A stretch of 64,000 bases of DNA. Origin: Mannheimia haemolytica (lineage in GTDB: Bacteria > Pseudomonadota > Gammaproteobacteria > Enterobacterales > Pasteurellaceae). A program made the translations under genes and the position numbers. The notes under the pieces are model-generated. The model did no database searches. It was given only the letters and a program-made list of their open reading frames with translations, and was not told where the DNA came from. Positions 33,717-39,914 of the stretch are shown here, piece by piece (the stretch's first letter is position 1; every line of letters starts with the position of its first letter). The stretch covers positions 1 to 64,000 of the forward strand of contig NZ_SMAC01000011.1 in the NCBI RefSeq assembly GCF_004342115.1, written 5' to 3'.

Positions 33717-33780
33717 CCCTCTCTCTGATAAATATTTCTGCACGAAATATTTATCGGTCTCTCTCCCATATAAGGGAGAG
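33717..33780. repeat. Palindromic intergenic element, family A copy 5
   Basis: CCCTCTCTCTGAT, inner stem AAATATTTC / GAAATATTT, then the hairpin CTCTCCCATATAAGGGAGAG. It faces copy 4, with an uptake signal (core at 33706-33715) between them, and ends nine bases before the leuS stop. Confidence 0.88.
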
Positions 33781-33788
33781 TGTGTTTG

Positions 33789-36374
33789 TTACGCCTTAAC
33801 CGCAAAGCTCAACATTTTAAATGGAACGTAGATTTCTTTTACAATCTGCTGACCATCTAAGAATTTAGCAACGTTTGGATCGGCTTTAGCGATAGCTTTA
33901 ACTTCATCTTCCGTAGCAGTAGCTGAAACAGTGATTTTGCCACGCACTTTTCCGTTGACCTGTACTACCACTAATTTTTCATCTTCCACCATTGCGGATT
34001 CATCGGCTTGTACCCAAGGGGCAAAATCGATGGTTTGTTCATTACCTAACACTTGCCATAACTCAAAGCAGATATGTGGCGTGATTGGGTAAAGCATACG
34101 CACCACCGCACTTAAAGCTTCTGCCATTACGGCTTTATCTTGTTCGGTTTCAAGTGGGGCTTTGGTGAGCTTGTTCATCAATTCCATCACCGCAGCAATC
34201 GCTGTATTGAAGGTTTGACGACGACCAATATCATCACTCACCTTAGCAATCGTTTTGTGTACATCACGGCGAAGTTCTTTTTGATCCTTGTCTAAGGCAT
34301 TCACATCTAATGCAGTCGTTGCCGGATTTTGGGCATAGCTATAAACTAAATTCCAAACACGACCTAAGAAACGTTTTGCCCCTTCAACGCCGGATTCTTG
34401 CCATTCTAATGTCATTTCCGCAGGGGAGGCAAACATCATAAACAAGCGAACTGTGTCAGCACCATATTTTTCCACCATTTCTTGCGGATCGATACCGTTG
34501 TTCTTTGATTTCGACATTTTAGTCATACCGCTGTGAACCAGCTCACGCCTTTGTGGATCGGTTGCTTTGATGATACGACCTTTCTCATCACGTTCTAAGG
34601 TGACTTGTGTCGGGCTGACCCAAATACGCTCGTTAGTTGGGCTGGTGTAGTAGAACGCATCGGCAAGCACCATACCTTGGCATAACAGTTTAGTCGCCGG
34701 TTCGTCCGAATTTAAAATACCCGCATCACGCAACAATTTATGGAAGAAACGGAAGTAGAGCAAGTGCATTGTGGCGTGTTCAATACCGCCGATATATTGA
34801 TCGACCGGTAGCCAGTAGTTTGCCTCGTCTGAATCTAACATTCCTTCGTGATATTGTGGGCAAGTATAACGTGCATAATACCAAGAGGACTCCATAAAGG
34901 TATCGAAAGTATCGGTTTCACGCAATGCCGGTTTGCCGTTGTAAGTGGTTTTCGCCCACTCTGGGTCGGCTTTGATTGGGCTTTGCACGCCGTTCATTAC
35001 CACATCTTCAGGGAGAATCACCGGTAAATCTTGTAATGGAACGGTAACCACTTCGCCCTCTTCTGTGGTCATCATTGGGATTGGTGCACCCCAATAACGT
35101 TGACGAGAAACACCCCAGTCACGCAGACGGAAATTCACTTGGCGTTTACCTACGCCCATTGCCTCTAATTTATCGGCAATCGCAGTGAAAGCCACATCAA
35201 ATTCCAAGCCGTCAAACTCGGCAGAGTTGATTAATTTACCGTGTTCGGTGTAAGCGGCTTTGCTGAAATCCCACTCTGAGCCATCAAGCGGTTGAATTAC
35301 CTGATTAATTTGCAAATCGTATTTTTGTGCAAATTCAAAGTCACGCTCATCGTGAGCCGGAACCGCCATTACCGCACCTGTACCGTAGTGCATTAACACA
35401 AAGTTAGCAACCCAAACCGGTACTTCTTTTCCTGTTAACGGGTGAATGGCGAACAAGCCGGTTGCCATTCCTTTTTTCTCCATGGTGGCTAATTCTGCTT
35501 CTGCCACTTTGGTGTTTTTCGCTTCACGGATAAATTCAGCCAATGCCGGGTTATTTTGTGCAGCTAATTCTGCTAATGGGTGAGCCGCAGCAATCGCCAC
35601 ATAGCTTACGCCGAAGAAGGTATCCGGACGGGTAGTGTAAACCGGTAATTCTACGTTTGAACCGGCAATTTTAAAGGTGATTTCTACCCCTTCGGAACGA
35701 CCGATCCAGTTGCGTTGCATGGTTTTTACTTGATCCGGCCACTGTGGGAGATTATCTAACTGATTGAGTAATTCTTCAGCATAGTCAGTGATTTTGATAA
35801 ACCATTGTGGAATTTCACGCTGTTCCACTGGGGTGTCACAACGCCAGCAACAACCTTCGTGAACTTGCTCGTTGGCAAGCACAGTTTCATCATTCGGACA
35901 CCAGTTTACGGTTGAGGTTTTTTTATACACTAAGCCTTTTTTATAAAGTTCTGTGAAGAACCATTGCTCCCATTTGTAGTATTCCGGACGGCAAGTGGTG
36001 ACTTCACGATCCCAGTCATAAGAGAAGCCCAACATTTTAAGCTGACCTTTCATATATTCGATGTTTTCGTAAGTCCATTTTGCCGGTGCGGTATTATTTT
36101 TCACCGCAGCACCTTCCGCCGGTAAACCGAAAGCGTCCCAACCCATCGGCTGTAATACATTTTTACCGATCATACGCTGATAACGAGACACTACATCACC
36201 AATGGTGTAGTTACGAACGTGCCCCATATGTAGCTTACCTGACGGATAAGGCAACATTGAAAGGCAATAGTATTTCTCTTTGGTAACGTCTTTAACTGCT
36301 TTAAAAACTTTATTTTCTGCCCAATAACGCTGAACCTTAGGTTCAATCTCACTTGGGTTATACTGCTGTTGCAT
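33789..36374 (-). CDS. leuS: Leucyl-tRNA synthetase
   Basis: Charges tRNA-Leu. The 861-residue class I enzyme shows the HIGH motif as '[19 protein letters not shown]' near residue 42, the KMSKS loop '[18 protein letters not shown]' near residue 618, a CP1 editing domain with '[19 protein letters not shown]' and the D of '[15 protein letters not shown]', and a zinc region with CxxC near '[12 protein letters not shown]'. All are standard. It is divergent from the acidic/basic pair. Confidence 0.97.
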
Positions 36375-36444
36375 AAAATTTAACCTTTAAATTTAACTGA
36401 AAAAATTGCCGATAGGATACCGCAAAAACGCCTTTTTTTGAATG

Positions 36445-36477
36445 GCAAGCGGTGGAATTTGATGAAAAATTTGCAAA
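36445..36477 (+). promoter_or_regulatory. Uptake signal overlapping a candidate start codon
   Basis: GCAAGCGGTGGAATTT, then GATGAAAAATTTGCAAAT. The ATG at 36462 lies in the signal's spacer and GGTGGA of its core could act as a ribosome site. Confidence 0.55.
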
Positions 36478-36773
36478 TTGTGAGTAACAGAAAAGCTAGA
36501 CAGCTGAATTTAGAACAGGCAAAATACAGAATATATAACCAGTACTTGAAGGAGCTAGGTATGTCTATTGTGATTGTAGATACCGATTTTGTTGTACATA
36601 AAGAAGATGAAGAGTGGACAACAGAAGAAATCAAGATGATAGAAGAACATTTATTAGAAGAACAATCAGCTCAATACCAAGTAAAAAGGGAAGTACCGAA
36701 ACAATTTTATGCTGATATTGCTGAACGTTTATCACGAGGAGATTTAACTGCTTGGGAGCAGTTAGATGGTTAG
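36462..36773 (+). CDS. Acidic protein, possible antitoxin of an overlapping pair
   Basis: I do not recognise this family. From ATG 36462 it has 103 residues; an ATG at 36561 preceded by AAGGAG would give 70 residues (MSIVIVDTDFVVHKEDEEWT...). The shorter form carries about 17 acidic and 7 basic residues. Its end, 'KQFYADIAERLSRGDLTAWEQLDG', is predicted helical. It overlaps the next gene by eight bases (ATGGTTAG), and the partner is basic. Size, charge and overlap resemble toxin-antitoxin operons, but no known antitoxin DNA-binding motif is evident. Confidence 0.55.
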   Translation: MKNLQIVSNRKARQLNLEQAKYRIYNQYLKELGMSIVIVDTDFVVHKEDEEWTTEEIKMIEEHLLEEQSAQYQVKREVPKQFYADIAERLSRGDLTAWEQLDG

Positions 36774-37092
36774 TGTTGATTTTAAAAATAATCTATTAGA
36801 GTTTATTTTCTATGGATTATTTTCGGAGCATACTCAAACGAATATCATCAATGGTTTACAGTTTTATCCAAAAGCAGGTGTCGCATTTCGAAAGGATTTA
36901 CGTTTCAGAAAGCGAGCGGTTTATCAACGGGAAATAATGGTATTCTATCAATTAGATAAAATAGATGAACCGAAAAAAGTCACCATTATTGCATTTCGTT
37001 TAGGGAGAATGAAAAATCCTATTCGTTTAGATACAGTGCAAAACCGCCGAGTAGTTACTGAAATTTTTATGAATTATCCTGAAAAAGATTAG
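36766..37092 (+). CDS. Basic protein, possible RelE/ParE-like partner
   Basis: An unrecognised 108-residue protein with roughly 19 Lys/Arg against 12 Asp/Glu. The central stretch 'LRFRKRAVYQREIMVFYQL' followed by 'KVTIIAFRLGRMKNPIR' has the alternating basic/hydrophobic strands seen in small RNase toxins of the RelE/ParE fold, and it ends with 'RRVVTEIFMNYPEKD'. Translation is coupled to the acidic gene. Toxin activity is inference. A plausible bidirectional terminator separates it from serS. Confidence 0.55.
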   Translation: MVSVDFKNNLLEFIFYGLFSEHTQTNIINGLQFYPKAGVAFRKDLRFRKRAVYQREIMVFYQLDKIDEPKKVTIIAFRLGRMKNPIRLDTVQNRRVVTEIFMNYPEKD

Positions 37093-37109
37093 GGATAAGA
37101 TTTATTAAA

Positions 37110-37138
37110 AAAACCAACCCCATTTCTGAGATTGGTTT
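37110..37138. terminator. Terminator between the unknown pair and serS
   Basis: AAACCAA and TTGGTTT form a seven-pair stem around a 15-base loop, with an A-run on the left and TTTCATTTATT on the right. It would serve both convergent genes. Confidence 0.6.
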
Positions 37139-37150
37139 CATTTATTAATC

Positions 37151-38473
<1,323 letters not shown>

Positions 38474-38488
38474 TTAAATTTGTGTTTC

Positions 38489-38554
38489 ACTCTCTCCCTT
38501 TATGGGAGAGAGACCGAAAAATATTTCGTTCAGAAATATTTTTCAGAGAGAGGG
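38489..38554. repeat. Palindromic intergenic element, family A copy 6
   Basis: Hairpin CTCTCCCTTTATGGGAGAG, inner stem AAAAATATTTC / GAAATATTTTT, arm AGAGAGAGGGC. The stem sequence differs from copy 5 but is still paired. Confidence 0.88.
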
Positions 38555-39140: not shown

Positions 39141-39247
39141 AATTTGTGTTTATTAATAAAAAATTAGTCACAATTTTACTTGAAATAACCTTGTTAGTGA
39201 ATGATAAAAGCAACAAGCGGTTGAATTTGAGTAAAATTTTGCAAATA

Positions 39248-39571
39248 TCAGGATAATTGCAATTGGATTGTTTTGCCGGTTTTTGCAACAAAAGTGACTA
39301 AGGTATCTAGGGTAAACTTTTCTAACTTGCCATTGACCATATCAGAAATTCGAGGGCGGCTAACACCTAGAATAGAAGCCGCTTCTGATTGTTTGAGATT
39401 ATTTTTATCAATCCAGTTGCTCATTTCATTCATTAGCATCAGTTTAGTTTCAATCAGTTGCTGACTGGCAGATTTCAATTTTTGAGCTTCATCAATAGGG
39501 AAACCAAGATCTTCAAAAACATTACCCTGAGCTTCTGTAGTATGGCGAATTTTAGTATCAATATTATTCAT
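39248..39571 (-). CDS. XRE-type helix-turn-helix antitoxin (HigA-like)
   Basis: A 107-residue DNA-binding protein. The helix-turn-helix is 'LKQSEAASILGVSRPRISDMVNGKLEKFTLDTLVTF', typical of antitoxins paired with Gp49/HigB toxins. It begins within the last codons of the toxin gene (eight-base overlap). As usual for HigBA, toxin comes first. It probably neutralises the toxin and represses the operon through the palindrome at the toxin start. Confidence 0.85.
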   Translation of the reverse strand: MNNIDTKIRHTTEAQGNVFEDLGFPIDEAQKLKSASQQLIETKLMLMNEMSNWIDKNNLKQSEAASILGVSRPRISDMVNGKLEKFTLDTLVTFVAKTGKTIQLQLS

Positions 39572-39914
39572 TTTCTAACTCCTTTACGGCAGCATAGCGT
39601 GCTTTAATGACAGCAATGTCTTTAGGGGCTGTTTTTTGCGTTTTCTTTTGGAAAGCGTGTAAACAGTAAATTGCATCTTTAAATTTAGCTAAATACACTA
39701 AGCGAAAAGCCCCTGAGGGATCTTTTACTCGAATTTCCATTACGCCTGAACCCAAATTTGCCATCGCTTTAAAATCCCTCGGTAATAAGCCTTGCTGAAC
39801 TAAATCAAGATCAAAACCGAGTTCTCTTTTAATGTTATCCGGAAATTCACGAATATCATCTAAGGTTGATCCAACCCAGTGAATTGGTTTTCGTTGGGAA
39901 ATTACAGTATTCAT
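39564..39914 (-). CDS. HigB/Gp49-like toxin
   Basis: A 116-residue protein of the RelE superfamily branch annotated as phage Gp49-like or HigB. 'FPDNIKRELGFDLDLVQQGLLPRDFKAMANLGSGVMEIRVKDPSGAFRLVYLAKFKDAIYCLHAFQKKTQKTAP' is the classic core, with the R-x-V and F-x-K-K-T-Q-K-T features of ribosome-dependent mRNases. It is a type II toxin next to its antitoxin. The ATG lies only a few bases after a -10-like element, so the transcript may be nearly leaderless. Confidence 0.88.
   Translation of the reverse strand: MNTVISQRKPIHWVGSTLDDIREFPDNIKRELGFDLDLVQQGLLPRDFKAMANLGSGVMEIRVKDPSGAFRLVYLAKFKDAIYCLHAFQKKTQKTAPKDIAVIKARYAAVKELENE

Follow-up and report, generated by a model that had tools for sequence, protein, structure and literature searches.

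A probable toxin-antitoxin module of an undescribed family, with a putative RelE/ParE-related toxin, between leuS and serS of Mannheimia haemolytica

Between the leuS and serS genes of Mannheimia haemolytica lie two small overlapping genes, one for an acidic and the other for a basic protein, and the question raised by this locus is whether they form a toxin-antitoxin (TA) system and, if so, of which kind. The DNA analysed here is a stretch of 64,000 nucleotides (contig NZ_SMAC01000011.1, positions 1 to 64,000), referred to as the window. A preliminary description of it had claimed an unrecognised overlapping acidic/basic gene pair, acquired as accessory DNA and possibly a new TA system. Both frames are present at the places where it put them, with the 8-base overlap that it reported (Table 1); the acidic gene comes first and the basic gene second, both on the plus strand between minus-strand leuS and serS. 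We consider it likely, judging from the comparisons given below, that the two genes form a chromosomal type II TA module of an undescribed family, in which the toxin would be related to RelE/ParE and the short antitoxin has no recognisable DNA-binding domain. No description of this family was found in the literature at the level of titles and abstracts, with most subscription journals outside the scope of that search.

Table 1. Features of the leuS-serS region, in window coordinates
Feature	Position	Strand	Basis
leuS	start codon ends 36374	minus	NCBIfam model match
DNA uptake signal, site-borne, not part of the insert	36447-36477	+	exact match to extended pattern
Interval holding the accessory segment between leuS and serS	36461-37108	.	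breaks in DNA matches to sister genomes
Conserved stretch upstream, likely the pair's promoter/operator	36490-36545	+	low divergence from closest pair
AAGGAG ribosome-binding site	36549-36554	+	read in the sequence; present in closest pair too
Acidic 70-residue gene, putative antitoxin	36561-36773	+	ATG 36561; pI 4.3; homologs; dN/dS
Overlap (8 bases) of acidic and basic genes	36766-36773	+	frame coordinates
Basic 108-residue gene, putative RelE/ParE-superfamily toxin	36766-37092	+	pI 9.9; homologs; dN/dS; profile-profile link
Imperfect inverted repeat at right edge, probably serS terminator, site-borne	37096-37153	.	core kept in empty G090 allele
serS	37151-38458	minus	NCBIfam model match

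As judged by sequence comparison, both frames are real genes under purifying selection, beyond what chance frames would give, because homologous pairs are present in three other genomes and the dN/dS values against the closest pair, that of genome G094, are low (0.096 for the basic and 0.134 for the acidic gene). The genes of the homologous pairs overlap by 8, 14 and 23 bases (loci L003, L004 and L005), and those of a distant pair in L016 stand without overlap. Through the overlap, the acidic and basic genes may be translationally coupled.

Two starts had been proposed for the acidic gene, one giving 70 residues behind the AAGGAG motif and the other, at ATG 36462, giving 103 residues. The former holds, with a methionine at the place equivalent to ATG 36561 in all three homologs, in one of which (L005) the frame is also open further upstream. 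The latter had to be given up: ATG 36462 falls within the uptake signal, which the empty allele of G090 also carries, and a reading of 103 or 111 residues was rejected. In the alignment with the closest relative, a single gap lies between the upstream stretch and the acidic gene. Because of this gap and the position of ATG 36462 in the uptake signal of the empty site, we take 36561 as the most likely start. The extended pattern that we assumed for the uptake signal has 29 matches in the window with at most 2 mismatches, as against 0 in 100 shuffles; at this site the window, G090, G091 and G095 match it exactly, and G092, G093 and G094 with up to 2 mismatches. The upstream stretch listed in Table 1 differs from the closest pair at 4 of its 56 sites as against 18 of the 48 fourfold-degenerate sites in both genes (Fisher p 0.0002), its borders having been set after the alignment was viewed, with the adjoining 13 and 15 sites differing at 10 and 5. 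This low divergence suggests a conserved promoter or operator. A sigma-70 consensus scan gave no promoter support, with fewer sites than in shuffles.

The flanks in leuS and serS match in all 7 genomes of the genus, and the slot between them holds the pair in 2 (the window genome and G094), is empty in 1 (G090, 158 intergenic bases as against 776 in the window), contains BrnTA in 2 and an Excalibur-domain protein in 2 (G091 and G095). In G093 BrnT (Pfam E 1.7e-18) and BrnA (E 4.7e-20) are followed by a 363-residue protein, and in G092 BrnA is found with a BrnT-like frame that is broken early. DNA matches of the window to G090 and G091 end at 36460-36461 and restart at 37107-37108; those to G092, G093 and G095 break at or close to 36461/37108. 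Since the sites in the five genomes other than the window genome and G094 are either empty or differently occupied, the pair is by this comparison accessory DNA, in agreement with the preliminary description. The region from 35900 to 36460, which covers the start of leuS and the preceding bases, is 99% identical to G091 despite the different cargo, and this would fit recombination through the flanks.

Other observations were made on the slot and its surroundings. The 363-residue protein of the G093 slot (L066 451-1539) has no Pfam match at E 0.01 and is possible defence cargo. An inverted pair of 59-nt repeats (33717-33775 and 38496-38554, 92% complementary) flanks the segment made up of leuS, the pair and serS, and is possibly a dispersed intergenic repeat. 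Also a second TA pair is present on the minus strand at 39248-39914, with a Gp49/HigB-type toxin (PF05973, E 4e-24) and an HTH_37 antitoxin (E 2e-17), beside which lies an uptake signal (39215-39245).

Comparison of presence and absence among strains, put forward earlier as a check, gives a patchy picture in which the homologous pair is found in 2 of the 7 genus genomes and 4 of 140 Pasteurellaceae genomes (the window genome, G094, G037 and G055), at three different sites. In G055 it lies between the serine ammonia-lyase gene and hemW, and in G037 it adjoins a gene with a tRNA-editing domain. The antitoxin profile matched 6 of the 140 genomes, namely the four with the pair, G057 and G086, the last of these inside a frame of 1151 residues and judged to be chance. 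In G057, where the neighbouring genes are those of G055, the antitoxin is still present (dN/dS 0.11 relative to G055, with the last few residues different), while the toxin is reduced to about 22 residues of its end. An antitoxin left without its toxin is as would be expected of toxin loss. At a site of the wider family described below (G037:C73), an antitoxin-like frame is open and the toxin broken. A toxin-end remnant in G006, where no antitoxin was found, counts against asymmetric loss, as does the toxin-like frame of G035:C4, again with no antitoxin detected.

The window toxin itself stops six codons short of the end common to its three close relatives, owing to a small difference in length close to the 3′ end of the gene. 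Intact copies of the toxin do occur. The window toxin may be weakened by the lack of this conserved C-terminal tail, or the missing tail may be an assembly error, as the length change affects the last codons, next to an A-rich run, and the assembly is a draft of 71 contigs. It could be argued that the window copy is a decaying TA remnant, already inactive, which would be compatible with our best explanation; the missing six-residue tail and the several broken or remnant relatives (G118, G037:C73, G057 and G006) speak for this, but the rest of both genes is under purifying selection against the closest pair and the tail change could be an error of the draft. We regard such decay as rather unlikely, though it is the most plausible of the alternatives weighed here.

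With iterated profiles, the wider toxin family comprises 11 open copies in 9 of the 140 Pasteurellaceae genomes, plus broken copies, where the fragment rows of G037:C73 and G118 are left out of the open-copy count and the rows of G097 and G105 were dropped as chance. An earlier profile search at E 0.01 gave 13 of 140 genomes, including remnants and one chance match. The order is antitoxin first in 10 of the 11 open copies, with a long antitoxin-like gene as the partner in 6 cases, the short kind in 4 and none found in 1 (G035:C4, whose toxin-like frame aligns with the profile only from position 9 onwards). Beside rplS, a second and distant toxin copy with a long antitoxin is present in the window genome (G000:C1, L023 1140-1821). 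The copies in G121 and G130 adjoin a TraG_N gene (Pfam E 1.2e-30 and 3.9e-34) and have TacA1-family genes just upstream (Pfam E 1e-16 and 1.9e-17; L009 761-1042 and L010 2256-2522), and because of these neighbours they are probably on an integrative element. An acetyltransferase partner of TacA1 was not recognised by eye in the 3.3-kb loci L009 and L010. In G035, genes for DUF2442 (Pfam E 5e-19) and DUF4160 (E 4e-22) adjoin another pair of the wider family (L017 1912-2401); they are possibly another toxin-antitoxin, the DUF4160 gene having a weak, below-cut-off NCBIfam match to the toxin DhiT.

Outside the Pasteurellaceae no relative was accepted among 394 order and 369 class genomes (profile A1), 398 phylum genomes (A3) and 136 order genomes (A5), sets that overlap and include some Pasteurellaceae. 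The sole match there (G446, E 2.6e-4) was dropped as it runs antisense to a long, presumably transporter-like gene. It follows from this match that E-values near 1e-4 can be chance here, and as the E-value alone is unsafe, for the toxins of L009 and L010 (first found at 4e-5 to 5e-5) acceptance rested on a match over the full length, on the order of the genes and on the profile comparison made later. For the window and L009 toxins no relative was found in plasmids (72,556 records) or phages (50,697 records), and for three other toxin relatives and the antitoxin none in the same plasmid records. The antitoxin matched two records of one Pseudomonas phage at E 0.4, judged to be chance, and five pattern scans of viral contigs gave no relative. 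Within the genomes searched here, the family is thus seen only in Pasteurellaceae.

Neither window protein has a convincing match in Pfam, NCBIfam, PHROGs, PADLOC or PDB sequences, so that the family is indeed unrecognised, and for the toxin there is no RelE/ParE family-model match at the curated cut-offs of Pfam and NCBIfam. Weak matches to Spa1_C (E 0.016) and the PADLOC candidate family C3a162 (E 0.003, 15.7 bits) were judged to be chance. On comparing profiles, the 11-member toxin profile scored 32.7 with hhalign (probability 70%) against a pooled RelE/ParE profile, built from 27 of the 30 PF05016 loci that were fetched (no frame was obtained from L073 and L075, and L092 was left out as short), and 0 of 200 column shuffles reached this score, the top shuffle being 18.3. 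Nineteen clusters of small proteins encoded in the fetched loci served as control profiles; the top two places go to the two RelE/ParE clusters (23.7 and 21.4), and none of the remaining 17 exceeds 13.2. The RelE/ParE subsets score 26.0, 27.0 and 38.9 among themselves, these subsets having been sorted by eye, with 2 of the 3 representatives matching TIGR02385 (RelE/StbE) and the ParE-like one matching nothing. Against one RelE/StbE subset alone the wider family scores only 12.5. The four close toxins alone reach a marginal 20.55 against the pooled profile (top shuffle 20.1), and against the RelE subset 86 of 200 shuffles are as good; for the wider family minus these four against the ParE subset, 3 of 200 are as good. 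An AlphaFold2 model of the toxin, made with two sequences, has a pLDDT of 39 because the sequences are too few.

We therefore place the toxin in the RelE/ParE superfamily as probable only, since the profile link of the wider family stands beside marginal or negative subset comparisons and an unusable toxin model. The RelE/ParE-like character that had been read from the sequence survives as a distant likeness of the wider toxin family in profile comparison, but for the close subfamily alone it is only marginal. One may then ask if this is a TA pair whose toxin has a new fold and its own target outside the superfamily. Such a toxin would fit the want of a convincing Pfam, NCBIfam or PDB match, the marginal score of the close subfamily and the unusable model. 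Yet the wider profile prefers two RelE/ParE clusters over 17 others, and the pooled score lies within the range that RelE/ParE subsets show among themselves, which makes a new fold decidedly improbable.

For the window antitoxin, no DNA-binding domain was found with Pfam, NCBIfam, PHROGs, PADLOC or profile comparison with ribbon-helix-helix (RHH) clusters, and in particular no ParD or RHH match with Pfam, NCBIfam or profile comparison; its structure model is weak (pLDDT 66.5), with no meaningful PDB fold match. The six long antitoxins of the distant relatives have an N-terminal RHH-like segment. Against PDB sequences, 5 of the 7 matches of the long-antitoxin profile are KacA, DUF1778, ParD or CopG-family RHH proteins, all weak with a best E of 0.0043. 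Their best outside profile matches are TacA1/RHH clusters (scores 27.1, 21.7 and 19.4), of which all except TacA1 (Pfam) were called RHH by eye. A ParD-like control cluster, named by eye, scores 12.2, no better than non-RHH clusters, and in L009 and L010 there is a sub-threshold ParD match (E 0.021 and 0.008). Profile comparison finds no detectable similarity between short and long antitoxins (40 of 200 shuffles as good), nor does it support a homology between the short antitoxin and the C-terminal region of the long ones, which had seemed possible by eye. Tentatively, and with slightly less than even confidence, we propose that one toxin family is served by two kinds of antitoxin, one long and headed by an RHH segment, the other short, acidic and accompanied by neither a DNA-binding domain nor a third regulator gene. 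If true, the lineage of the window would show, inside a single toxin family, either the replacement of an antitoxin or the loss of its regulatory domain, and the pair would be a two-gene module whose operon control rests on no DNA-binding domain of the antitoxin.

The TA character supposed in the preliminary description gains from the patchy paired distribution, the antitoxin kept in G057 and the distant relatives behind RHH-like antitoxin genes. Could the pair instead be an accessory two-gene module of another sort, for example a small regulator with an acidic partner or some other anti-phage or anti-plasmid pair? The toxicity of the basic protein is a prediction from sequence, and a very weak match to the PADLOC family C3a162 exists; against these stand the RHH-like antitoxin genes beside distant toxin relatives, the loss of the second gene with the first kept in G057, and the slot itself, which BrnTA takes in sister genomes. 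We hold a non-TA module to be very unlikely, least probable of all the readings considered, and retain the type II TA module.

Among known systems, the RelE/StbE and ParE toxins (PF05016, TIGR02385; with RelB/ParD-type antitoxins) have the same order as the window pair, an antitoxin followed by a basic toxin of ~100 residues, and share with it the remote likeness that profiles show for the wider toxin family and the RHH-like antitoxins beside six distant toxin relatives. They differ in that the window toxin has no direct family match and the window antitoxin has no RHH or other recognisable DNA-binding domain; the lack of an RHH (ParD) match sets it apart from ParDE too. BrnTA (PF04365/PF14384) shares the leuS-serS slot, in G093 and, with its toxin frame broken, G092, but has the toxin gene first, and the window proteins have no BrnT or BrnA match in Pfam. 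In the toxTA operon the toxin gene likewise comes first, as in its name. An antitoxin without a recognisable DNA-binding domain recalls PaaA2 of the PaaR2-PaaA2-ParE2 system of E. coli O157:H7, which PMC8630535 describes as an exception in having no distinctive DNA-binding domain; the system is also treated in a review (PMC4803016). This likeness is by description, no PDB chain named PaaA2 being among our matches, and that system has a third regulator gene, paaR2, whereas the window pair is flanked by leuS and serS, both in the opposite orientation. According to PMC6957337, toxTA (HI0660/HI0659) of Haemophilus influenzae is a horizontally acquired TA in which parts of the toxin gene are deleted in 142 of 181 strains. 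It is similar as an acquired Pasteurellaceae TA with a toxin-loss pattern like that of G057, but is of HigB/HigA type, with an HTH antitoxin and regulation by competence (PMC6957337).

Pairing, mobility, selection, asymmetric loss and distant RelE/ParE similarity are the properties that the genome and profile comparisons support. For toxicity, neutralisation, target, regulation and transfer route, we infer the following scheme. The first gene would give a small acidic antitoxin and the second a basic toxin distantly related to the RelE/ParE toxins, with the toxin probably translated after the antitoxin because of the gene overlap. The antitoxin would bind and mask the toxin, and if its supply stops the toxin would slow growth; RelE-like cleavage of mRNA at the ribosome would be the most likely means, and ParE-like poisoning of gyrase a less likely one. 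The leuS-serS slot also receives other cargo; exchange would probably take place by natural transformation and use the homologous flanks beside the uptake signal.

If the type II TA reading is right, the pair adds a TA family that was missed by the model libraries searched and is found here only in Pasteurellaceae. Its members would offer a natural series, from an RHH-like antitoxin through a short antitoxin and an antitoxin alone to an empty site, for studying how DNA binding by an antitoxin is lost or changed. Also the leuS-serS slot would be a compact natural case of module replacement, probably by natural transformation.
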